Positions 27,799-42,598 of a stretch of DNA of 64,000 bases are shown here, one piece after another (position 1 is the first letter of the stretch; each line of letters opens with the position of its first letter). Both the position numbers and the translations under genes were made by a program. Location: contig PADB01000011.1 in the NCBI GenBank assembly GCA_002700365.1, forward strand, positions 62,001 to 126,000, written 5' to 3'. The notes under the pieces are model-generated. The model worked only from the letters and a program-made list of their open reading frames with translations, was not told the origin of the DNA and ran no database searches. The stretch comes from Kordiimonas sp. Lineage in GTDB: Bacteria; Pseudomonadota; Alphaproteobacteria; Sphingomonadales; Emcibacteraceae.

Positions 27799-28863
27799 CT
27801 AAATCCTTTTAAACAAAGGACTACGCGCTAATGCTGCTTCGCCATCGCCTTGTGATACGAATTTCTCAGTGAAGATATCTTTTTCAAACAACCGGCCCTT
27901 CATCAAAGTGCGAATGCACGCTTCAATCATAGGTGGCGGCCCACAAAGATAAGCCTGATTGCCTTTGAACTGGCCCTCAAAATGGCGTTCGGCTACTTCA
28001 TTGATAAATCCAACTTCCCCATCCCAGTTGTCACCCTCTTTCATTTCGGATAACGCGGGCACATAGATAAAGTTATCATACTTTGCGTCCAGGTCGCGGA
28101 AGAGATCTTCGTAGTACAGATCAGCTTTAGAGCGTACTCCATGGAAAAGCACAATATCATCTGTGCAGCCCTCTTCAAGCAATTCCTGCACCATTGATTT
28201 TGGACTGGATAGCCCCGAACCACCGGCAATAAACAACATCGGCATTTTTTGCGATTTGCGTACGAAGAAACGACCGTAAGGACCAGACAATTTCACATTG
28301 TCCCCCACCGCCAGTTTTTGATGGATATGGGTGGTCATCGCCCCATCGGGCACCAGTCTGATGTGTAATTCAATAATCTTTTCACTGGGGCCATTGGCAA
28401 TGGAAAAGGCGCGGGCGCCATCAATACCGTCAATTTCTAACTGAATATATTGACCGGCCTGAAATTCCATCTCTGCATCATCATCTAATGTCAGAAAGAC
28501 ACCCTTGATATCCGGGGACAAATCCTTCAGGTCACTGACCGTTGCCTGATAATCTTCCACTGGCAAATAGCGGGCGTCTTCGTCCTCTTCGATTTCAGCT
28601 TCAATTGTGGTGTCGTCTTCCAGCGTTGCACAGCATGCCAGAGCCTTACCTTCATCACGCTCAAAATCCATCAGCGCGAAAGGCGATGCTTCACCATGAT
28701 CGATTTCGCCCTCCAGAATATCTACTTTGCACGAACTGCAAAGCCCGTGACAGCACTGATAGGGGATATAGATGCCCGCCCGCAAGCAGGCATCCAGTAT
28801 CGTCTGGCCGTCCTCGACTTCGATGGTCTCCCCGATCGGCTCGATGGTCAGCTCGTACGTCAT
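27799..28863 (-). CDS. dmpP: Phenol hydroxylase reductase (P5)
   Basis: A 354-residue FAD/[2Fe-2S] oxidoreductase. The N-terminal ferredoxin domain has Cys37, Cys42, Cys45 and Cys77. The FAD domain has R-A-F-S-I-A-N, and the NAD domain has G-G-S-G-L-S-S and the terminal C-G-P-P-P-M. It passes electrons from NADH to the diiron hydroxylase. Length equals that of DmpP (353). The start overlaps the dmpO stop by one base (TAATG). Confidence 0.95.
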   Translation of the reverse strand: MTYELTIEPIGETIEVEDGQTILDACLRAGIYIPYQCCHGLCSSCKVDILEGEIDHGEASPFALMDFERDEGKALACCATLEDDTTIEAEIEEDEDARYLPVEDYQATVSDLKDLSPDIKGVFLTLDDDAEMEFQAGQYIQLEIDGIDGARAFSIANGPSEKIIELHIRLVPDGAMTTHIHQKLAVGDNVKLSGPYGRFFVRKSQKMPMLFIAGGSGLSSPKSMVQELLEEGCTDDIVLFHGVRSKADLYYEDLFRDLDAKYDNFIYVPALSEMKEGDNWDGEVGFINEVAERHFEGQFKGNQAYLCGPPPMIEACIRTLMKGRLFEKDIFTEKFVSQGDGEAALARSPLFKRI

Positions 28864-29222
28864 TAGCTTGCAACTCCGCCAATACCGTTCAGGCCCGGGG
28901 TTGTAAACCGGAACAGTGATTTATGGTGTGCCCCTAAATCTTCTAATGTCTGGTCCGGCTCTGGGGAGATCGGCTTATGGTCCAATGTCCATTCCACCGC
29001 ATCCCAATCAATTTTCTCAAATTCAGGATGGGCACTGTACACATTAGGCAATAATTCCGACACCAACGCCCCAAACGGCATGTCCGGCGATAACGGTACA
29101 CATACTGGCGCACAGAACATCAAATGCTTTTCCCAGTTAATGTAAATCAGGATGTTGCCATGAAAGTTTTCACGTTTATCCAGCGGTTCAAATTTATATT
29201 CACCAATTGAGGTTACAGGCAT
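28863..29222 (-). CDS. dmpO: Phenol hydroxylase gamma subunit (P4)
   Basis: About 119 residues, the same length as DmpO. It contains F-H-G-N-I-L-I-Y-I-N-W and the W-D-A-V-E-W-T-L-D region typical of the small hydroxylase subunit, which packs against the alpha-beta core. The frame opens four codons earlier, but GGAGG lies just before the ATG at 29222 (M-P-V-T-S-I-G), so that is the start. Confidence 0.92.
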   Translation of the reverse strand: MPVTSIGEYKFEPLDKRENFHGNILIYINWEKHLMFCAPVCVPLSPDMPFGALVSELLPNVYSAHPEFEKIDWDAVEWTLDHKPISPEPDQTLEDLGAHHKSLFRFTTPGLNGIGGVAS

Positions 29223-29301
29223 TATCGCCTCCATCTTCTCATAACATCATTAAACACGGTTCGGGCGACGGAGTATCAGGCCGCCGCCCTCCTGCATGGA
29301 T

Positions 29302-30825
29302 TTAGCTCGCCGCCTTGGCACGGTCAGCCTGCCACTGTTCCCACAATTTCTGGTCTGGGGAACCGTCATAATCCATATTATCAACACTTTTGTTGAGCTT
29401 GTACCATTCCAGTACGTCCTCAACACTGGCCCCACCACAGTTGCCCTGATAAATCTGGTGTACGGGCAACCAGGCCTGTACGTATTTTTCAGGCTCGTGG
29501 TCAAAAATGTTCTTACAACCATCAGAACAGAAGTGATATGTCTCGCCATTGTGTTCCGAACTACGGAAGCATATGGTGGTCGGATCATCCGGTTCGGTAA
29601 AGCCCATGGGAATCTGACATGTCTGACACAACATCGGCAGTGTCTGGTTATAGAAACGGTTACCCGCATCTTTTTCTGCCTGCCAATGGTCATAACGTGG
29701 ACGATAATACTTGTTAAAGGTGTCCGGATATTTGCTATCCAGCCATTGCATTTCGTCTTCGTTCGGCACCCATGTATGGAACGCCGCCGCATGGGTATAG
29801 TTATAGAAAATAGACCATACTTCATGAGAAAGACGATCTTTTTCCTTAGCCGGAATGTCATGGAATTTAGGCAGCTTAATACCATAACGGCCCAGATCTT
29901 CGAAGAGAGAGGTCCCTGCATCTTCGAAATAGATTTCCCACGCCTCTTTCCAGGACATAATCCGTTTAGGCAGCATGTAATCCATCATCATGGCCACAAG
30001 ACTTAAGAAGCGGTAACCACGCCAGAACCATTTATCAATCCAGTGCTGCACAATCGGCACATTGCGTTCATCCTGTTCCAGCATGAATTTAATCACACCA
30101 AGACCCAGAGTCATGTGACGGGCTTCATCGGACTGCGCTGAGAAGCCAAAGGTCACTGTGGCCATATCACCATTAAAAGCGGCCCCTGACATAAACGGCA
30201 CAAACAGCAAATTCGTCAGCACATATTCAAATGAGAATGAAATGGCCGTCAGGAACTCAAAAGGCCCCGCGGTCATGGCATCGTCAAAGAAGGATTTCGG
30301 CACGGACAGATACCATACACGGTCATGCATATGGCCACGGTTATGCAGTCCATCGAAATATTTATTGTAATGGCTCATGGAATGAAGCTGCGTTTGCACG
30401 TGGCGGAGCTCATCAATGGCCTGCATTTGACACGCCACCCGCGCACCGACGCCTCCAAAATGACGACCCACATGGGTAAAGCCCCGTGCGGCGGCATATT
30501 CCAGCGGGCTAACACCTGTCAGGAAGATCTTAATGGCGTTGATGTAACGCGCATCTGTGATCCCCAAGTGACCATTATTCTGCGCAAAACTGTCAATCAC
30601 GGCATACAGTTTACGCTCTTTTTCCGCCTGAAACTTCCAGTAGGCATCCATCGTCAGGCGGAACGGGTCTTCCCATTCATCCCAGTCGTGAATAATAATG
30701 CCCTCATATTTGTCGTAAGGATATACCTTCTCTTCCGGCTGATAGGTGGTATCCCACCCAAGCCCGCGGGTCAGCAAAGAATACCGTTCTTTAATACCCA
30801 TGCGTTTTTTCTTGTTTACGGCCAT
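29302..30825 (-). CDS. dmpN: Phenol hydroxylase alpha subunit, diiron (P3)
   Basis: A 507-residue catalytic subunit of the soluble diiron monooxygenase family. The expected ligands are all present: Glu109, Glu139-x2-His142 (D-E-L-R-H), Glu200 and Glu234-x2-His237 (D-E-A-R-H). A C-terminal YHS-type Cys cluster (C-x2-C and later C-x3-C, about 398-440) is also typical of DmpN. With DmpL and DmpO it forms the hydroxylase that inserts one oxygen atom into phenol or related aromatics to give catechols. There is no sign of damage. Confidence 0.95.
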   Translation of the reverse strand: MAVNKKKRMGIKERYSLLTRGLGWDTTYQPEEKVYPYDKYEGIIIHDWDEWEDPFRLTMDAYWKFQAEKERKLYAVIDSFAQNNGHLGITDARYINAIKIFLTGVSPLEYAAARGFTHVGRHFGGVGARVACQMQAIDELRHVQTQLHSMSHYNKYFDGLHNRGHMHDRVWYLSVPKSFFDDAMTAGPFEFLTAISFSFEYVLTNLLFVPFMSGAAFNGDMATVTFGFSAQSDEARHMTLGLGVIKFMLEQDERNVPIVQHWIDKWFWRGYRFLSLVAMMMDYMLPKRIMSWKEAWEIYFEDAGTSLFEDLGRYGIKLPKFHDIPAKEKDRLSHEVWSIFYNYTHAAAFHTWVPNEDEMQWLDSKYPDTFNKYYRPRYDHWQAEKDAGNRFYNQTLPMLCQTCQIPMGFTEPDDPTTICFRSSEHNGETYHFCSDGCKNIFDHEPEKYVQAWLPVHQIYQGNCGGASVEDVLEWYKLNKSVDNMDYDGSPDQKLWEQWQADRAKAAS

Positions 30826-30898
30826 TTTATATCTCCGTTCATCAAACTCTTAGATTTATGCTCTGCTACAGCACACTTCCCGGTTCATCTTTTCTGGG

Positions 30899-31171
30899 TC
30901 AGGCTCCCCAGCTCAACTCAAAATAGTCGTCTTCTTCATCGACGTTGCCCGCCAGACTGATGACGCTCAGGTGAATTTCCTGAACATCCCAATCGCGGCC
31001 CAGTTTTTCTTCGACTGTTTCCTGTTTAACGATCAATTTACCGGGACAATCGATTTTAACCATCGCCGGATATTGATTAACGACAGCTTCCGGATTGTCT
31101 TCGGCAATCGCCTCAATAATTAAGCGGGCGTCATCGTTATTTTGTAGAGTGATAGAAACATTACGGGTCAT
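30899..31171 (-). CDS. dmpM: Phenol hydroxylase activator/coupling protein (P2)
   Basis: The frame is open for 122 codons, but the ATG at 31171 (M-T-R-N-V-S-I-T-L-Q-N) gives 90 residues, exactly the size of DmpM, lies 13 bp after the dmpL stop, and has AAGGAG upstream. It is a cofactorless effector protein that binds the hydroxylase and tunes substrate access and electron flow, with typical W-D-V-Q-E-I-H-L-S and acidic C-terminal segments. Confidence 0.93.
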   Translation of the reverse strand: MTRNVSITLQNNDDARLIIEAIAEDNPEAVVNQYPAMVKIDCPGKLIVKQETVEEKLGRDWDVQEIHLSVISLAGNVDEEDDYFELSWGA

Positions 31172-31184
31172 CGCGTGACACTCC

Positions 31185-32186
31185 TTATAGCTCAAGGCCG
31201 GCCTTTTTGGCCCGCTTGTCAAGATCAGCATTAATGGCTTCAAACGCTGCAGCCGCAGCTTCTTCACCCAGTGTTTTCTGTGCCAGCGGCGTAAAGGCTT
31301 CTTCTGCCTGTGCCCGCCATTTTTTTACCCAATCGGAAATGAGAGCTTTGTTCTCATCGCTTTCCGCCGCACAGACTTTCAACAGGTTATCCGCCCATTT
31401 CTTTTCTTCAGCGTACCAGTCCACCATGAATTCATTCAGCATGGACAGAGCCGCCCCGTTATGGGCGGCAATCGCCGCATCAAAGGCGTCATAAGTCAGG
31501 CCGTAAACAATGGCATCCATGCAAAAATTCTGGGCGATATGTAGTTCAAACCAATCGTCCAACACAAAGCTGTCTTCCACCATTTTCCGGATCGGCTGCC
31601 AGGCTTCATCTTCCAGCCAATAGTCTTTGGCTTTGGTGAGTGACGTCCCGCTGTTACCGTCCAGCAGTAGACCAACGCGGCTGATAATTTGCGCAATGCC
31701 CAAACGGTCCATAGCCGCAAAGATACCTACCTGACTGACCGAAGCACCATAAGAACGATCAGAAAAATCTGAATTGTTCATGTTCGCGCCCCACTCGTAA
31801 TGACGCAGCGGCAGGAAAAAATACCCGACTTTCTCTTTCCATTCATCGCTAATGCTGTCCAACAGGTTCCGCTTTTCAACAAAGCTGAAATTCTTTTCCT
31901 GTGCTTCCATCATGCGAGAACGGGCGATGGTGTAAGTCCCATAGTAATATTGGCGCGGGTCACGATAGCTGTACCAATCTTCCATTTTGATTTTGGTCAG
32001 ATTTTTGTCATACAGCTCACGACTGGAATCCCAGGTCGGACGAAAATGGAAATTGTCCGTAGGCTGGATATCGAATGTACCCTCTTCATAACGGGTCGCT
32101 GGCTTATCTGCACCCAAACGTTCCGCAACATTAGCATATGTGTTCCGCCGTGGCTGAAGAACCGATGTTTTAATCTCTAGACTCAC
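31185..32186 (-). CDS. dmpL: Phenol hydroxylase beta subunit (P1)
   Basis: A 333-residue ferritin-fold structural subunit, close to the 331 residues of DmpL. The N-terminal region has P-R-R-N-T-Y-A-N-V and Y-S-Y-R-D-P-R-Q-Y-Y-Y-G-T-Y, highly characteristic of the beta subunits of phenol and toluene monooxygenases. It lacks the diiron ligand pairs, as it should. Confidence 0.95.
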   Translation of the reverse strand: MSLEIKTSVLQPRRNTYANVAERLGADKPATRYEEGTFDIQPTDNFHFRPTWDSSRELYDKNLTKIKMEDWYSYRDPRQYYYGTYTIARSRMMEAQEKNFSFVEKRNLLDSISDEWKEKVGYFFLPLRHYEWGANMNNSDFSDRSYGASVSQVGIFAAMDRLGIAQIISRVGLLLDGNSGTSLTKAKDYWLEDEAWQPIRKMVEDSFVLDDWFELHIAQNFCMDAIVYGLTYDAFDAAIAAHNGAALSMLNEFMVDWYAEEKKWADNLLKVCAAESDENKALISDWVKKWRAQAEEAFTPLAQKTLGEEAAAAAFEAINADLDKRAKKAGLEL

Positions 32187-32223
32187 CTATCGTCTCCTGT
32201 TTTCCGCTATTTTAATACTATTG

Positions 32224-32487
32224 TCAGTCCCGTGACGGCTTCTGGTGACGCCACTTTAACTGCTCGAAATCTTTTTCGATGTCGCTTTTTATTTCTGTAA
32301 TTCTGGCATTGTTTAACGCACAGAATTCTTCAAACGCCGGGAAAGGCATCACAAGCTCTACGGTCAGAATTTCTTCACCTACCGTAAAATCAAATTCCAC
32401 ATAAAGGTTGCGTCGCACACCAGTGACGACAATGGTTTTATCATAATCTGACAAACGGTCCTGTGCGGACTGAAATCCTTGTGACAT
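32224..32487 (-). CDS. dmpK: Phenol hydroxylase assembly protein (P0)
   Basis: About 87 residues. It is the first gene of the operon, in the position of DmpK, whose role in Pseudomonas is assembly or iron insertion of the hydroxylase. The core V-T-G-V-R-R-N-L-Y-V-E-F-D-F and P-F-P-A-F-E-E-F-C fits the family. The frame opens at 32502, but GGGAG lies just before the ATG at 32487, so that is preferred. The sigma-54 promoter lies about 95 bp upstream. Confidence 0.9.
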   Translation of the reverse strand: MSQGFQSAQDRLSDYDKTIVVTGVRRNLYVEFDFTVGEEILTVELVMPFPAFEEFCALNNARITEIKSDIEKDFEQLKWRHQKPSRD

Positions 32488-32590
32488 GAAAATTTCTCCC
32501 AAAATCTCCCGCAGTCATAAGAAACGTGATCTCTCTATCGTTTACAATTCTTCGACATCACGAAACGCCTATACTGCTATAATTATAAAC

Positions 32591-32606
32591 AGCAAGTGTT
32601 ATGCCA
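32591..32606 (-). promoter_or_regulatory. Sigma-54 promoter of the phenol hydroxylase operon
   Basis: Read on the minus strand the site is TGGCATAACACTTGCT. It matches the -24/-12 consensus TGGCAC-N5-TTGCW at all positions but one, with the invariant GG and GC exactly ten bases apart. The start point would be near 32580, giving a leader of about 90 bases to dmpK. This is the promoter class used by dmp operons. Confidence 0.85.
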
Positions 32607-33393: not shown

Positions 33394-33462
33394 TATCGCC
33401 TCCCACGTCTAAAATTTATGTCCTTTACACATTCTGGAATAACAACAGAACTGCAGAAAAGA

Positions 33463-33493
33463 AAAAGCGGGCAACATAACGCTGCCCGCTTTT
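33463..33493 (-). terminator. Terminator of the YCF48-DUF1329 operon
   Basis: The stem AAAAGCGGGCA / TGCCCGCTTTT has a nine-base loop. On the minus strand it is followed by a T-rich run (TTTTTCTTTT). It lies directly after the DUF1329 stop and before the isomerase-like gene. Confidence 0.85.
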
Positions 33494-33503
33494 ATTTCGT
33501 CAA

Positions 33504-34826
33504 TTATTTACCGGTCACACGCATATTCTGCACGGTAAATTTCTTCGGTGGGGCCATAGATGGATCTAACTGCCCTTTGAACTGACCTGTTGTGCAATGT
33601 TTGGACTGCACATCCAGCATCATAAAGGAGTCATCAATAGACACCCCGGACCCTTTGTTCTTTTCCAGATGGTGATCTGGATGGGTTTGACCAATGATAA
33701 AGGAACGCCATGGCTCACCCTTACGGTCATACTGTGTTGTCCGCGGGATCGTAAATGTTTCCGCATCAACATAATGTACCCGCCGGCTTAAGGGGTGGTT
33801 CTTATCCACTGGCACACTTTCCAGGATATGGGCTTTACGAAGCTGCCATGTAATCTGAGGGAAACAACCCCCCTGACCACCAAACTCGACAAACTGGTAA
33901 CCGTCGGCCTCTTTGTGGTCTTCGGATAGTTCCAGTTCATTATGCTTATAGAATGGCAGCATCACCATACGTGTGCCTTTATAGTTCCAATTCATATCGG
34001 AAATCCGGCCGTTATAGCCTTCGAAATCTTCAATCATCAAATCAGAACCCAGGAATGAATCCGTAACCTGCCCTGTTGCCAGACGCCGCACCCGACGCTG
34101 GAACCCAAGATACAACCACGCATTATCCCGCTTCAGGTCATTTTCAAACCGATGGATCAACAGCTGGGTGTTTTTCACGTCAAACGGTTCCAACACCTGC
34201 ACATAAATGCCCCTGAATAACTGACTTGGGTTATTGGGCAGATCCGGTTTCGGCTCATCGTTGATCCGATGTTTATAGTTCAGGAAGTGGAAACTGAATT
34301 TCAATGTCCGCTCAACCTTACCGGATTTGAAATCACGGAACTTCCAATAGAACGGAGAGATTGTGGCACTGTCGCCCCAGTTCAGTCCATATTTATAGTT
34401 CCACGCCAGCTTCTCCCCCGCACGCGGGTCATCGGCTTTGGGCTCTTCGGGAAACGGGCGGCCGGCTACAAAACCATTAATAGACCCGACCTTATCACCC
34501 AAAGTCACTTTATTCAGCCCATCATAAGTGGCCTGAATATAATTTTTGTTCAGCTCAAAAGGGATCGTTTCTGCAACGGTCATTTCCGTCCAGCCGTTCT
34601 TGATGAAGCTATACATTTCATCATCAAGAATTTCTTTGAACTGTTCCACATTTCCCTGATTAATTTTCATCCCGGCCGACAGCCCCTCATAAGTAGGCGT
34701 GCTGTTTTTATAGGGATAAAAACTGTTCTCCACATCAGCTTCCGAGGCGGCATGGGCATTAAAGCCCATACTACCCATGCTGATGGTAATGGCGGCCGCA
34801 GCCGTTAAGATATGTTTTTTCATCAT
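33504..34826 (-). CDS. DUF1329 outer-membrane lipoprotein-sorting-like protein
   Basis: About 440 residues with a signal peptide (M-M-K-K-H-I-L-T-A-A-A-A-I then A-H-A-A). The mature part has the DUF1329 look: rich in Tyr and Trp, with R-R-V-R-R-L and F-L-G-S-D-L-M-I-E-D-F-E-G-Y-N-G motifs. DUF1329 proteins have a LolA/LolB-like beta fold and occur with DUF1302, YCF48 and RND genes in clusters handling hydrophobic compounds. The transport role is inferred. AAAGG six bases upstream favours the second ATG. The gene is intact, unlike its two upstream neighbours. Confidence 0.85.
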   Translation of the reverse strand: MMKKHILTAAAAITISMGSMGFNAHAASEADVENSFYPYKNSTPTYEGLSAGMKINQGNVEQFKEILDDEMYSFIKNGWTEMTVAETIPFELNKNYIQATYDGLNKVTLGDKVGSINGFVAGRPFPEEPKADDPRAGEKLAWNYKYGLNWGDSATISPFYWKFRDFKSGKVERTLKFSFHFLNYKHRINDEPKPDLPNNPSQLFRGIYVQVLEPFDVKNTQLLIHRFENDLKRDNAWLYLGFQRRVRRLATGQVTDSFLGSDLMIEDFEGYNGRISDMNWNYKGTRMVMLPFYKHNELELSEDHKEADGYQFVEFGGQGGCFPQITWQLRKAHILESVPVDKNHPLSRRVHYVDAETFTIPRTTQYDRKGEPWRSFIIGQTHPDHHLEKNKGSGVSIDDSFMMLDVQSKHCTTGQFKGQLDPSMAPPKKFTVQNMRVTGK

Positions 34827-34841
34827 TCTCATCCTTTGCGA

Positions 34842-35800
34842 TTAGAAACGATAACGCAATGTGACCTGGATCTCGTCTTCGGCCTGCGCCATGCCGAGAG
34901 GGCCAGAGCGGAAACGTCCAAGAGGTTCAAACCCACCTAAACCAAGTGTATAGCCCGGTGCATGCCCCGGAAATGCTTCTGTAAATGGTGGATATGGGTT
35001 ACAGCTCCGACAATCATCAAAGCTACGCGCCCCTTTACCGACTTTGAAATTCGCCCCGACAATGAGACGCCAGTTATCGTTAATCAACCAGTCAACCTGT
35101 GGCGCCAATGTCACGGCACTCGCCCGCACGTCATACGCAGAAATAATCTGTGCAGACAGGCGGTTTTGCATCCACCAGCCCTTGATCAGGAAAGTCGCAA
35201 TCCAGTTGTCTTTCCAATCCGGCATTCCCGCCAGACCGGCTGGTCGCATTTCTTTTTCATGATCCAGCAGGTGTTGGCCGAATAGCTGTGCCGATAACAG
35301 GAACGCCTTGGTTTCATTCAGGAACGGGATAAAAGTATCACGGTCCCAACCGATCACATAACGCACCACATCAGATTCTGAATACAGACGTGGGTCCAGT
35401 GTATTGGCGAATTCCTCACCCGTGGTGTAGGCCAATTCAATACGGAACACAGATTTGATGCTATCCGCATAAATATCCATAGACCCGCCAAACAGATGAA
35501 TACGCGGGAATTCCACATCAAAGGCAATCAGGTAAGGGGTACCCGTTGGGTCTGTGACGCCCGTAAACGGATTAACAGAAGGAGGTCCATCAGTTCCCCC
35601 GTGCAGTGACGGCAACTGGCTCAGATACGTCAGGTAGTTAACAGAAAACCCAACGCTTTTATAGACACCTTCGACTTTACCACCGATCTGGGTATTATCC
35701 AGTTCCCAGTCCGGCAGGTTGACATTGCGGATACCAATTTGGTTTGGACCGAAATCTGTCGCGGCAACACCGTTAGCAACATCGGCACCATGATAAGCAC
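34842..35800 (-). pseudogene. DUF1302 outer-membrane protein, 5' part deleted
   Basis: The reading frame is open from about 35805 to the stop at 34842, and its sequence (G-P-N-Q-I-G-I-R-N-V-N-L-P-D then L-D-N-T-Q-I-G-G-K-V-E-G-V) is that of the middle and C-terminal part of a DUF1302 beta-barrel-like protein, ending in Q-V-T-L-R-Y-R-F as outer-membrane proteins do. The signal peptide and first half are absent. Upstream of about 35780 the DNA instead encodes the RND protein in another frame. No plausible start or ribosome site exists, so only a 257-codon internal frame from a Met at 35615 could be translated. Full-length family members are near 600 residues. Confidence 0.8.
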
Positions 35801-36928
35801 ATTAACAATGACGCAAATAGCCCACAGCGATGCATAGTAAGACAGTTTGGTATTAATCGGCACAGACCCCAATGAAATCAGCAATAAGCCGATCGCGTCT
35901 GACACAACGCCCAATGATCCCGGCCGGAACAGGCTGTCAAAAGTTTGTCGTGCAGCCTTTTTACTATCTTTGACGACTTCCAGCTCACTGTAATATCGTT
36001 CCACCAGCTGAATACCGTGGGACATGGCCCGCGCTGCAATCAGGAAGGGGATCACCATGGTGAGCGGGTCGAGGTTATATCCCAATAGCCCCAGAATACC
36101 GATCCCCCATATGGAAGAAATCGCAATGCCCGTCAGGGGAATAACCACGCCGTAAAGCCGGCGGAAATACACCACCAGCAACCCGAGCATCACAAGAAGT
36201 GTAAACGCAAAAATCTGGAAAACCTGTTCCTTGTAGGTATAGATCCAGCCCACAAGCATCGGTTGCCCCGTCACATAGATACGCGTCCCTTCGCGGGCTT
36301 CTTCCGCGCGGAATTGTTGAATTTGACGGAATGTTTCTTCGTAATCCAGCTCCCCTTCGTTTAAGGTACCCTTAATCACGGCGGCCTTCATATCGGGGGA
36401 AACCTGCAAACCGTAAACCCGTGGATTTGCCCGCACATCATTGCGCATGGCCACCAATTCTTCCGGGTCCAACACCGCCTTTTTTGACGGATCGTAATAG
36501 GGCTCCGATACAATGGCCCCCATTTCCGATAACCAAACCTTACGTGTGGTCCGGTGGGTCAGTGACGTTACCAGGTTATGGTTGATCCCCGGCAGATTAT
36601 CCACTTTCTGTGTTAGCCGGTGAATAGTCGCCAGAGTGTCATTATTAAAAATATCTCCTTCATCCACCTCTACACTGACGATGACAACATTAGCCCCGCC
36701 AAAAGTGTCACGAATGGAATTGTGGAGTTGAATATATGGATGCTCCTGCGGTAGCAGGTCGGCAAAATCGGAATACATCCGCACGCCGGGAATCTGCATC
36801 GCAAAGAAAATAGTAATCGCAAGAATAAGCCCTAAAAAGACTTTTGGATAAGCAAATAAGTGATCGTCTGCATCACGGAGGAAGTGGGTAAACCTTGACA
36901 TGACCCCTGTCCTTTCCCTTTCTGCCAA
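35630..36928 (-). pseudogene. RND/MMPL-family exporter, 3' half deleted
   Basis: The first about 395 codons encode the N-terminal half of an RND superfamily transporter: a helix near 25-45, the D-F-A-D-L-L-P-Q-E-H-P-Y periplasmic entry, then helices from about 240 to 395 ending in M-V-P-M-L-L-T-V-L-P. After that the frame runs on for about 37 codons out of frame through DUF1302 sequence and stops at 35630. Full-length relatives have close to 800 residues. The gene has lost its second half by deletion and cannot form a normal pump. It lies 34 bp after the YCF48 gene. Confidence 0.82.
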
Positions 36929-36962
36929 AGGCGGCGATATCTGCGCACGCTTTGGAAATAAA

Positions 36963-37940
36963 TTAATTCAGCTCAACGACGTGAAGGCTTCCACCACCAC
37001 CCGCAACCAGCATTTTCCCATTAGGTAGGGCCGTAATACCCCGCAAGTATCCATAATGCTGGATATCGCCAAAATTTTGCCACTGCCCGCCATTCAGGCG
37101 CATTAACGTATTGTTGTTACCCACGGCAAAAACCTGGCCATGGATTTCTGCAACGTTGTAAATAGGCGCATTTGTGGACGTGTCCTGATATTGCCAGCTC
37201 TGGCCGCCATCAGAAGTATGTAATATTCTCCCCTGAAGGCCGACAACCCACCCTTCTTCGGGGGTACGGAAATAACCGGATTGAGAATAGAATTCATTGG
37301 GGACCGGCTCACGGGCTTCCCAGGTCTCACCACCATCGCTTGTGGCATAGACGAAACCAAACTCCCCCACTATGACCGCATTTTGCGCATCCAGAAACTG
37401 TATCCGGGTAAACATGGCATCATCCATCACCGACAAGTCCTGCCAGTTGGCACCATCATCATCCGTCATGGTAATAAGGGTAAAACTCCCCACCACCCAG
37501 ACACGATTGGACGGGTCACAGGTCAGATCAAGGACTTCCTCTTCCGTGGCTATCGGCATAGCCGACCAATTCTGGGCGTTCTGATCGGAAAACCAGATGC
37601 GCCGAGCGACATCCAGCGCAACAAAACGCTGATCGGGACAGGCGGCCACATCAATAAACAGCGGATGCTTTGTCAGACTGCCATCCCCAACATAGCTGCG
37701 CTGCCATTGGCCACCATTATCTTCAGAAACAAGAATTGTGCCCCCTGCACCCACAACAACAGTATGGGTTAATGATTGGGCAACAGATTGAAATTGATCA
37801 AAACGTACGGTCGTGGCTTTCTTCTCCGCCTCAACCTTTTCCAGATCCAGCTTTGCTTCGCAGGCTGACAGCAATAATGCTGAACATACAGCCACGATAT
37901 ATAAGACGGACCTCCCCTTCAAAATTCTCTTAAACAACAC
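36963..37940 (-). CDS. YCF48-like beta-propeller lipoprotein
   Basis: A 325-residue protein with a lipobox L-L-L-S-A-C (Cys near 27), then repeated blades with the Asp-box pattern (S-E-D-N-G-G-Q-W, T-D-D-D-G-A-N-W, T-S-D-G-G-E-T-W, T-S-D-G-G-Q-S-W). This is the YCF48/HCF136 propeller, named from photosystem II assembly but common in non-photosynthetic bacteria beside RND, DUF1302 and DUF1329 genes. It is the first gene of the damaged operon and is itself intact. Confidence 0.88.
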   Translation of the reverse strand: MLFKRILKGRSVLYIVAVCSALLLSACEAKLDLEKVEAEKKATTVRFDQFQSVAQSLTHTVVVGAGGTILVSEDNGGQWQRSYVGDGSLTKHPLFIDVAACPDQRFVALDVARRIWFSDQNAQNWSAMPIATEEEVLDLTCDPSNRVWVVGSFTLITMTDDDGANWQDLSVMDDAMFTRIQFLDAQNAVIVGEFGFVYATSDGGETWEAREPVPNEFYSQSGYFRTPEEGWVVGLQGRILHTSDGGQSWQYQDTSTNAPIYNVAEIHGQVFAVGNNNTLMRLNGGQWQNFGDIQHYGYLRGITALPNGKMLVAGGGGSLHVVELN

Positions 37941-38230
37941 TTCGCGCTCCCTTTGAACAACCTGGCGTTATTGATTAACGCTCTATATTGGTTGCTACAT
38001 TAAAGTGTACCGATTAGTACACTTGATAATCAACGACATCATTCAAGAAAACTTCGTTTCCCGCCGGTAAACTTAAATATTCAGATACACCGATACATCA
38101 TGGCTGTTGATTATCCTCCCAAACCCCACGACATTGGTGAACTCCCACCTATCACCAAAATCAAAGGGCAATAAATCCGCCAAAATCACAATTTATTTTT
38201 TATTTGTTTATTTTGACGTAAGCAGAACTG

Positions 38231-38246
38231 TGCAAGCCCTATGCCA
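38231..38246 (-). promoter_or_regulatory. Sigma-54 promoter of the YCF48-RND-DUF1302-DUF1329 operon
   Basis: On the minus strand it reads TGGCATAGGGCTTGCA, matching TGGCAC-N5-TTGCW at all but one position with correct GG-to-GC spacing. It faces the YCF48 gene, leaving a long leader of about 280 bases. The same TGGCAT variant is used at the dmp promoter and at 49021-49036. Confidence 0.8.
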
Positions 38247-38427
38247 GAGTGTAGAAAAGCCCCCAAATAATATCCCGCTCGTCTTAAGTCCGTCAGGAAA
38301 ACTCTTAGCATTTCATGAGTATAATGAATTTTAACAAAAAACTAACCATAAACCGCAATGCATGCTATCTGCATATACACCAACACCCCAAAAGTTATCC
38401 ATATGGTCATTTCTATTGTCATTTAGC

Positions 38428-38443
38428 CCGATCAATTGATGAT
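38428..38443. promoter_or_regulatory. XylR/DmpR-like operator (UAS)
   Basis: CCGATCAATTGATGAT matches 12 of 16 positions of TTGATCAATTGATCAA, the operator of XylR/DmpR-type activators as I recall it. It lies about 210 bp upstream of the predicted sigma-54 start and 125 bp before the divergent regulator gene, so it could serve both activation of the operon and autoregulation. Confidence 0.55.
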
Positions 38444-38567
38444 ATGGTGAAATACTATCTTTGTAGAAACGACAACCTATATTAAACTATTCAGTACGGA
38501 TGATCGTAGAATCATCATTCAAGCGTAATTGTGATGACAATAAAGTGAGCCTATAGCCGAGAACATT

Positions 38568-40343
38568 ATGGTAAAAACGCCCTTCTCACGTGATGAAGAT
38601 ACCGTCAATCTGTTGCCGGAATTACCGGACTTTTCTGACCTCTCTTCACAGTTAAAGTTTTCACCGAAAACCGGGCGCATCTGGCTAGATGAGCAACGGA
38701 TGATGCTCCTGCATGGCGGGTCACTGGGGGCATTACGCAATGAATTGATCGAAACTTTGGGCGTGGATATGGCACGGGCACTGTTGACCCGTATGGGCTA
38801 CACTTCCGGAGCTTTTGATGCAGAATTGGCAGCAAAAATTCGTCCCATCAAAGATTTCTTTGATGTTTTTGCCGTAGGTCCGCAACTTCATTCCCTGGAA
38901 GGTGTCGCCTCAGTAGAGCCCGTCCGCCTGGAAGCCGATGTCGCGAAAGGGGCATATTACGGGGAATTTATCTGGCACGACTCCATTGAAGATGAAATCC
39001 ATATTAATAAGTACGGACTAGGTGCCGATCCGGTCTGCTGGATGCAGATCGGTTATGCCTGTGGTTATACATCCGTCTTTATGGGGCGGCCAATTTTCTA
39101 TCGCGAGGTCGAATGTCGCGCAACGGGTCATTCTGCCTGTCGTATTATTGGCAAACCCCAAGAAGAATGGGGAAGCGAGATTGAAGAAGAACTCGCTTAC
39201 CTGCCACCGCAATCCTTTACGCAAGCCACAGGCAAAGCCCAAACCCCCATTAAAAAGCCGGCACCAGTACCCACAGACTTCACCAGCACTGATACCCCTC
39301 CCCATACGCCAGCAAGAATCCGTACCGATATGGTAGGGGCGTCAACGGCCTTCAATATTGCCTGCCATATGCTCGATAAGGTTTCCCTCACCGATGCAAC
39401 TGTCTTATTTCAGGGGGAATCCGGCGTTGGTAAAGAAATGTTCGCCCGCACTTTACACCAAATTGGCAAACGGGCAGACAATCCCTTTATTGCCGTCAAT
39501 TGTGCGGCACTACCGGAGAACCTTGTCGAAGCTGAACTTTTCGGTGTTTAAAAAGGAGCCTTTACCGGGGCCGTGGAAACCCGGCCCGGCCGTTTTGAGC
39601 GCGCCGATACAGGCACCATCTTTCTTGATGAAGTCGCGACCTTATCTCTATCCGCACAAGGAAAACTGCTCCGGGTCCTGCAGGAACAGGAACTGGAACG
39701 GGTCGGCGGAAAAAAACTGCATCATATAGATGTCCGCGTGATCGCCGCCACAAACGAAGATCTGCGCACCGCCGTCGATAAAGGCGCGTTCCGGGAAGAT
39801 TTATATTTTCGCCTGAATGTCTTCCCTACTCATATTCCACCTTTGCGGGAACGTAGCGCGGATATTCCTTTATTGATGAATCATTTTCTCAATAAGTTCC
39901 GTAGCCGTTATGAGAAAGACATTACTGGCTTTACCAGCCGCGCCATTGATGGCTTTATTCAATATCATTGGCCCGGCAATATCCGTGAATTAGAAAACCT
40001 TGTTGAACGCGGCGTCATCCTCGCCCCTGATGGTGGGGCCATTGACCTGTCCCATTTGTTCACCTTTGGTGAAACAGTACAAAGCCCCATACTGGGGATA
40101 GGTAAAGACGGCATGCTGGATACATCAACATCGACATCCGATGATCGCCACCATCACAGTGCCGACAGCGCGGAAAATATGATAGATCGCCTGTTGCATG
40201 ACAATATCTCTTTAGAGAAACTAGAACATGACCTACTGACAAAGGCCGTAGAAAAAGCCGACGGAAACCTATCCGCCGCGGCCCGTCATTTAGGCATCAC
40301 CCGGCCACAACTGGCCTATCGCTTAAAGAAAATATCACCATAA
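38568..40343 (+). pseudogene. dmpR: DmpR/XylR-family sigma-54 activator interrupted by a stop codon
   Basis: The full frame spans 591 sense and stop codons. The N-terminal aromatic-sensing region (XylR_N, about 20-130) is followed by a V4R domain (about 130-205, with [10 protein letters not shown]), a linker, an AAA+ domain with Walker A G-E-S-G-V-G-K-E near 285, and a C-terminal Fis-type helix-turn-helix ([16 protein letters not shown]). At codon 328 (39549-39551) the normal Glu of L-F-G-V-E-K-G-A-F-T-G-A is TAA, one G-to-T change from GAA. Everything after it remains in frame and well conserved. The predicted product lacks the sigma-54 contact loop and DNA-binding domain. Confidence 0.9.
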
Positions 40344-40425
40344 CCAATATTCCCACTGCAGAAGAAACCACAATGATGCATAAAAATCATTGCAGTTTAT
40401 CTATTAAGTGATTAATGTCCGATTC

Positions 40426-40600
40426 GATGGTGTCCGATAATAAGGACAAAAGGGAATACAGTACCGCCGGCCGGAAGTGATCGGCGCATTCTGTAGCTGC
40501 CCCCGCAACTGTAAACGGCGAGCAACCATTCATATCCACTGGGGTAACCTGGGAAGGGAATGGACGCGACGACCCGCAAGCCAGGAAACCTGCCATCGCT
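40426..40600 (+). ncRNA. Cobalamin riboswitch upstream of btuB
   Basis: The conserved pieces occur in order: GATGGTGTCC and AAAAGGGAA, then GCTGCCCCCGCAACTGTAA, then CCACTGGGGTAACCTGGGAAGG, and finally the B12 box around GACCCGCAAGCCAGGAAACC. Together they form the adenosylcobalamin-type riboswitch that represses downstream expression when B12 is plentiful. It lies 160-330 bp before btuB. Boundaries are approximate. Confidence 0.92.
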
Positions 40601-40756
40601 GTCGTCCTTCCATGGACCGGGGTTGGTCTATGGTGCGGTTTCTCCGATGTGACGGCGTTATCTGTCCGGATAATGGTCTGTCATGTGGATACCTTTTCGT
40701 TCCCTTGCATACCGTTTTCCAGACAAACATAAAAAATAATATGGAGAAATAAGGGT

Positions 40757-42598
40757 ATGTCGATCACATATTCATCTACATCACGCTTTGCACTGGCCTT
40801 GGCCACCGCAGCAATACTTTGTACCACGACGGCCAACGCTGTTGACCGTCCCGTCAACGACGAAACAATTGTGACATCCACCAAAACCAATCGCCCCCTT
40901 TACAAAGTAGGTAATACGGTTTCCGTATTAACCGCAGACGATCTGGAAAAACGTCAGGCACGTTCCGCCATTGATATTTTGCGTGAATTGCCCGGCGTAA
41001 CGGTCGGACGTAACGGCGCATTCGGGGCGGTTTCTACCGTACGTTTACGCGGGGCCAACAGCCGCGATACCATGGTGATTATTGACGGTGTTGTCGTCTC
41101 GGACCCCAGTTCCACGCAAACAGCTTATGATTTCGGGCATTTACGCACGTCCGATATTAAAAGCATCGAGGTCTTGCGTGGTTCACAAAGCACGCTTTAT
41201 GGTTCCGAAGCCATCGGCGGGGTCATTAATATCACGACGAAGTCCGGCACAGAAGAGCTGAGCAATACGGCATCTGTGGAATATGGCAGCTACCAAAGCC
41301 TGCAAGCCACATATGGACTGCGCGGCGCATTAGCCCAAAAAGTCAATTTTGCCGTTAACGCAGAATATTATGACACTGATGGTTTTTCATCACGGGACAC
41401 CAACACCGAAGATGACGGTTATGAAAACATCACCCTTTCCGGAAAAGTAGATCTGCAGGCCACAGACCATTTGGCCTTCGGGTTTAATCTTCGTCATATT
41501 GACACCGATGCAGAATATGACAACTGCAGCTGGCCCTCTACAAATGACTGCGACAGCAAATATAAACAAACCACGGGCCGTGCCGATGCGGACCTGACTT
41601 TATTTGATGGTAGCTTCTCGCAAAATATTGGCCTGGCCTTTTCCGATACGGACCGTGACTATTATGCCAATGGTGCTTTTGATTTTGCCTCACAAGGCTC
41701 ACGGGTCACCCTGGCCTATCAGGGGACAATCCGCTTTAATGAGGCCAATACATTGGTATTCGGGTATGAGCATGAAGAAGAAGAATTTTCAGGCACCTGG
41801 AACCCTAGCGAGGATGTGAATACAGACAGCCTGTTCGGTCTTTATGAAATCGACGTGTTAAACAGCCTGTTTTTAACAGCTGGCCTGCGATTAGACGACC
41901 ATCAGAACTTCGGTTCCTTCGAAACCTTCAAATTCTCTGCTGCCTATCAGGTTCCGAATACGATGACCCGCCTGAAAGCCAGCTATGACGAAGGCTTCCG
42001 CGCACCATCACTTTATGAATTGTTCTCTTTCTATGGCGACCCGATGTTGCAACCGGAAGAAAGCAAAAGTTATGACCTGGGCGTTGAACAAGACCTGTTG
42101 GGGGGCGACCTGTCTTTAGGGCTGACATATTTCTATTTGAAAACCACAAACTTGATTGATTTTGACTTCTTGCTTGGCGGTTACATACAAATTCCGGGTA
42201 AGACCACATCCGAAGGGGTGGAAAGCAGTGTGACCTATAATGGCATCGAAAATCTGACTTTATCCGCCAATTACACCTATAATAAAACCAACGATGTGAA
42301 TGGTGACCCATTAGTGAGACGGCCAAAGCATGAAGCCAACCTGAACGCCAATCTTGTCTTTCTGGATGGCCAGGCAAATGTGAACGCCAACATTCACTTT
42401 GCAGATGGGGCTGTCGATAACTTTAATGTTGATCTGGACAGCTATGTACTGGTTGATATAGCCGCATCCTTGGCGGTCACAGAAAATGTCGAAATTTATG
42501 GCCGCGTTGAAAACCTGCTGGATGAAAACTATCAGGTCGTCAATGGCTTTAATACCCCGGGGCTATCTGCTTATGCGGGGGCGCGCTTAACGTTCTAA
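40757..42598 (+). CDS. btuB: TonB-dependent vitamin B12 receptor
   Basis: A 613-residue outer-membrane receptor with a signal peptide ending A-N-A. The TonB box region (E-T-I-V-T-S-T-K) is followed by a plug domain (I-D-I-L-R-E-L-P-G-V-T-V, L-R-G-S-Q-S-T-L-Y-G-S-E-A-I-G-G-V-I-N-I) and a 22-strand barrel ending in G-A-R-L-T-F. Length matches BtuB. The riboswitch upstream makes cobalamin uptake the likely role. No BtuC/D/F genes follow, so the inner-membrane transporter is elsewhere. A terminator closes the unit. Confidence 0.92.
   Translation: MSITYSSTSRFALALATAAILCTTTANAVDRPVNDETIVTSTKTNRPLYKVGNTVSVLTADDLEKRQARSAIDILRELPGVTVGRNGAFGAVSTVRLRGANSRDTMVIIDGVVVSDPSSTQTAYDFGHLRTSDIKSIEVLRGSQSTLYGSEAIGGVINITTKSGTEELSNTASVEYGSYQSLQATYGLRGALAQKVNFAVNAEYYDTDGFSSRDTNTEDDGYENITLSGKVDLQATDHLAFGFNLRHIDTDAEYDNCSWPSTNDCDSKYKQTTGRADADLTLFDGSFSQNIGLAFSDTDRDYYANGAFDFASQGSRVTLAYQGTIRFNEANTLVFGYEHEEEEFSGTWNPSEDVNTDSLFGLYEIDVLNSLFLTAGLRLDDHQNFGSFETFKFSAAYQVPNTMTRLKASYDEGFRAPSLYELFSFYGDPMLQPEESKSYDLGVEQDLLGGDLSLGLTYFYLKTTNLIDFDFLLGGYIQIPGKTTSEGVESSVTYNGIENLTLSANYTYNKTNDVNGDPLVRRPKHEANLNANLVFLDGQANVNANIHFADGAVDNFNVDLDSYVLVDIAASLAVTENVEIYGRVENLLDENYQVVNGFNTPGLSAYAGARLTF

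Follow-up and report, generated by a model that had tools for sequence, protein, structure and literature searches.

A short-repeat deletion probably truncated adjacent RND and DUF1302 transport genes beside a phenol hydroxylase operon in Kordiimonas sp.

The stretch of Kordiimonas sp. DNA analysed here (64,000 nucleotides, referred to as the window) contains an RND exporter gene and a DUF1302 outer-membrane protein gene that are each reduced to one half and joined to one another, next to an intact phenol hydroxylase operon. We consider it likely, with a probability of roughly 0.8, that a spontaneous deletion between short repeats turned both genes into pseudogenes and that, together with a nonsense codon truncating the neighboring activator, it marks the ongoing loss of an inducible four-part transport system, which relatives keep beside their phenol hydroxylase. 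In this reading, replication slippage or single-strand annealing most likely removed about 2.34 kb flanked by a pair of 7-bp direct repeats, and with it the second half of the AmeD-like RND gene together with the first half of its AmeA-like DUF1302 neighbor.

The truncated RND gene (MMPL family, AmeD-like; 35630–36928, minus strand), identified by alignment, Pfam and NCBIfam, encodes the first ~380 of ~797 residues, followed by ~43 out-of-frame residues up to a stop at 35630. Its reading frame tracks intact homologues as far as the sequence ...MLLTVLP, with 72–77% identity to relatives before the joint, and MMPL is matched over residues 142–388. The best NCBIfam model is TIGR00921 (HAE3), yet its cut-off of 351.9 is reached neither by the half in the window (70 bits) nor by an intact relative (141.4 bits). 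A complete RND exporter has two periplasmic loops and 12 transmembrane helices; the window gene comprises the first half only and lacks the second periplasmic domain and the later helices. As replacement for the missing half, the genome offers only distant paralogues, the best at 22% identity. Judged from its sequence, the RND gene is thus presumably a pseudogene encoding half a transporter with an out-of-frame tail.

The DUF1302 gene (AmeA-like) is represented by its C-terminal half (34842–35767, minus strand; alignment and Pfam), the original start and signal peptide being absent. Its frame is open from 35801, aligns with homologues from G-V-A-A-T-D-F onward and reaches the normal end at 34842, covering model positions 252–528/255–541 only. 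PF06980 is matched with 66.4 bits, which is above the cut-off, but over positions 255–541 alone, so that the remnant does not amount to a full protein; an intact relative scores 176 bits over positions 73–525. There is no second DUF1302 copy in the genome, where the truncated remnant is the sole match. We take the remnant to be a pseudogene as well, and loss of function of both RND and DUF1302 would follow from what the two frames retain. In addition, around position 35225 (minus strand) eight residues present in all relatives (around SLAG.PGF.KAG) are absent from the DUF1302 remnant, an in-frame loss.

Aligning both parts with full-length homologues, the check proposed in a preliminary description of this DNA for finding the breakpoint and any microhomology, places the switch from the RND to the DUF1302 frame at 35761–35767 (minus strand), inside the interval 35630–35805 in which that description had already noticed a change of gene and frame. 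The joint consists of TTGCCGC (35761–35767), a 7-bp overlap fitting both genes. Split into RND codons, the sequence across it is GTG TTG CCG CGA CAG; split into DUF1302 codons, it is GTT GCC GCG ACA. Of the two adjoining bases, the left one agrees with the valine codon of RND and disagrees with the leucine codon that most DUF1302 relatives have, and the right one agrees with DUF1302 and disagrees with RND; the widest zone of ambiguity is GGTGTTGCCGC (35761–35771). Because the RND and DUF1302 frames mismatch, the fusion of the two genes that had been proposed holds only at the DNA level and yields no fusion protein.

Among eight distinct relatives in which both break sites are readable (L017 and L029 being one contig), the break positions lie 2,308–2,360 bp apart in the register of the window, which bears out the earlier estimate of a loss of roughly 2 kb. 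Measured against these relatives, the missing DNA comprises, as first proposed, the second half of RND and the first half of DUF1302, the latter with its signal peptide. In one of the eight, L019, both break positions, that in RND and that in DUF1302, show TTGCCGC in register; in the remaining relatives the two positions have 2–4 bp in common. Because of this exact 7-bp repeat in one of eight relatives, a deletion between short direct repeats would be the simplest origin of the joint. For E. coli, RecA-independent deletion between short direct repeats is documented (PMC5426353), and the present joint resembles such events in that the intervening DNA is gone and one repeat copy is left; it differs in that the ancestral repeat copies are here deduced from a relative (L019).

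The joint is clean at both ends and without inserted DNA, which would suit an excision that is programmed or site-specific, carried out by a recombinase or a mobile element, and 'specific excision' was indeed the term first applied to it. We regard this as extremely unlikely, and the term is not upheld. No direct or inverted repeats of at least 16 bp occur in 33400–38600, in agreement with the initial statement that no insertion sequence or long repeat marks the joint (the 7-bp microhomology is present), and neither a recombinase site nor a mobile element is present at the joint. Furthermore, the lost segment is plain coding sequence of two genes in relatives rather than an element, every relative compared is unexcised, the breaks fit a chance 7-bp direct repeat, and the activator carries a second, independent lesion. 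The deletion thus looks like an ordinary event, and with the activator stop it makes two lesions in a catabolic locus whose parts for transport and control are being lost.

Amplification chimeras also give microhomology joints. The main rival of a true deletion is an assembly artefact, in which both genes are whole in the organism and an assembler or amplification chimera joined parts 2.3 kb apart; to this we assign a small but appreciable chance. A single assembly stands behind the joint, and in another RND gene of this genome the frame breaks at nine consecutive G, maybe through a base-calling indel. Against an artefact speak that no repeat of assembler k-mer length lies near the joint, that the regulator of the same cluster bears an independent base-substitution lesion, and that the assembly, in 12 contigs, has a listed completeness of 100% and contamination of 0%. 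A search of the other contigs found no copy of the missing 2.3 kb, which further lowers the likelihood of mis-assembly. Although the joint is read from this one assembly, we infer that the deletion is real in the organism.

Relatives from the same family and order have a locus that runs from a divergent activator through YCF48, RND, DUF1302, DUF1329 and a DsbA-like gene to the phenol hydroxylase genes. Their RND frames measure 791–800 aa, contig permitting (in L021 there is an upstream stop, yet RND is full length on direct translation), their DUF1302 frames 646–681 aa, and the gap between the two genes is 3–78 bp. The four cassette genes sit side by side in each of the eight relatives with a locus that spans all of them; the window likewise has all four, recognizable and adjacent, with two of them truncated. 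The flanking genes, described as intact at the outset, are both full length by Pfam and comparison with relatives: a YCF48/BNR-repeat protein (AmeC-like; 36963–37940, minus strand) and a DUF1329/LolA-like protein (AmeB-like; 33504–34832, minus strand). Also intact is a DsbA-fold protein (PF01323; 32800–33393, minus strand), found at the same place in relatives, and among those other open reading frames of the window that were run against Pfam, no further obvious truncation came to light.

This arrangement recalls AmeABCD of Castellaniella defragrans 65Phen, a four-part cassette described by Puentes-Cala and Harder (PMC6394551) and composed of AmeA (DUF1302), AmeB (DUF1329/LolA-like), AmeC (YCF48-type, COG4447) and AmeD, an HAE3-type RND protein forming a distinct lineage within HAE3; its deletion lowers monoterpene tolerance and raises Nile Red accumulation (PMC6394551). 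The same four protein types occur in both cases within a catabolic island for toxic hydrophobic substrates, and by composition and adjacency the intact cassette of the relatives fits the AmeABCD type. The window cassette differs in that it adjoins a phenol hydroxylase, whereas AmeABCD adjoins monoterpene genes, and in that the AmeD-like and AmeA-like genes are broken in the Kordiimonas genome.

With regard to the age of the loss, we looked for faster divergence of the remnants compared to their intact neighbors and found none. Unique changes at otherwise invariant sites amount to 9/132 in DUF1302 and 7/179 in RND, compared to 14/213 in the intact DUF1329, and codon-position differences are alike in remnants and intact neighbors; divergence at synonymous sites is too high for dN/dS to be informative. 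Since the remnants diverge no faster than their neighbors, the deletion looks recent when set against the divergence from known relatives. Recency explains the lack of excess change equally well as the supposition that the half-size RND (first periplasmic domain and following membrane helices) is kept as a working half-transporter whose outer-membrane partner is dispensable. The latter could also draw on the cut lying directly after a hydrophobic helix (residues 361–379 of a 797-aa intact homologue). Nonetheless, we judge it very unlikely: the product ends in ~43 out-of-frame residues, the gene is full length in every relative compared, contig permitting, and the activator of the cluster is broken too.

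This activator gene (38568–40343, plus strand) is of the XylR/DmpR type acting with sigma-54, with XylR_N, V4R, AAA+ and HTH_8 domains and MobR as best NCBIfam match. An in-frame TAA (39549–39551), directly before the GAFTGA motif, splits it, so that the domains of a functional activator are not found together in one uninterrupted frame; at this position all ten distinct relatives compared have an acidic residue. The same frame resumes after the stop, and as both open reading frames share it, a frameshift is ruled out in favor of a nonsense codon. A sigma-54 (-24/-12) promoter-like site, TGGCATAGGGCTTGCA (38231–38246, minus strand; one mismatch), lies upstream of YCF48 and hence of the transport operon, with a counterpart in nine of ten distinct relatives scanned, weaker in two of the nine. 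Another one, TGGCATAACACTTGCT (32591–32606, minus strand; one mismatch), lies upstream of the hydroxylase operon and has a counterpart in 7/8 relatives scanned. Across the window as a whole, matches of this kind occur no more often than expected by chance, and the weight of these two rests on position and conservation. Because the sites are positioned and conserved at both operons, transport and hydroxylase operons are probably both targets of the activator described here. With its own promoter-like site, the hydroxylase need not be silenced by the deletion. It is conceivable, if rather unlikely, that the locus has been adaptively rewired, with the intact hydroxylase and its kept sigma-54 site being driven in trans, on a substrate not needing the transporter, by another XylR_N activator; the genome has two others, on contigs C11 and C1.

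The hydroxylase operon itself (27799–32502, minus strand; Pfam) is intact and encodes DmpK-, L-, M-, N-, O- and P-like proteins: all six components are present (PF06099, PF02332 twice, PF02406, PF04663 and reductase domains), and the DmpN-like subunit has kept both iron-ligand E-x-x-H motifs. By component families and motifs it qualifies as a multicomponent phenol hydroxylase (DmpKLMNOP), with phenol as the predicted substrate. It shares with dmpKLMNOP and its XylR/DmpR/MobR-type activator the six hydroxylase components, the activator domains and the -24/-12 sites. The hydroxylase of relatives is directly followed by catechol 2,3-dioxygenase and meta-cleavage genes. The Kordiimonas genome differs in that the activator is interrupted, contig C11 carries the catechol 2,3-dioxygenase gene, with an intact XylR-type activator next to it, and contig C3 carries the gene for 4-hydroxy-2-oxovalerate aldolase. 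With these two genes present on other contigs, a complete loss of the meta-cleavage pathway was rejected.

Of 60 genomes sampled, 13 match the window DUF1302 (its own genome counted), and each of these also carries the hydroxylase large subunit; one more genome of the 60, which is 67% complete, has a strong but partial hydroxylase match and no DUF1302 match. The co-occurrence of the AmeABCD-like cassette with phenol hydroxylase in Emcibacteraceae, each operon with its own conserved sigma-54 promoter-like site, suggests that the cassette handles phenols or their products. This provides a testable link for the poorly characterized DUF1302, DUF1329 and YCF48-type proteins; searches of the literature yielded nothing on Emcibacteraceae with phenol hydroxylase, nor on YCF48 with DUF1302. 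The locus also offers a clean example of the erosion of a catabolic cluster, where transport module and regulator go and the enzyme genes stay.

Further observations concern other parts of the genome and window. On contig C11, five genes in a row (L053:12455–18546, minus strand of the locus) encode similar proteins of 343–392 aa with the motifs MGFF.G... and LTKWLMP...NDYNGLGRKD, the first of them matching a 4Fe-4S domain; they form a tandem gene family near the catechol 2,3-dioxygenase gene and a TonB receptor, beside aromatic catabolism genes. On contig C1 (~611630–613869; loci L026, L050 and L058), a second RND/MMPL exporter lies in two frames of ~400 aa each, split near the nine-G run, with best matches in relatives of one frame and 773–850 aa; possible readings are a phase-variable tract, a pseudogene and a base-calling indel. 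Finally, a cobalamin riboswitch (RF00174, 108 bits; 40412–40611, plus strand) lies directly upstream of a BtuB-like TonB-dependent receptor (40757–42598), which for this reason probably functions in B12 uptake, outside the phenol cluster.
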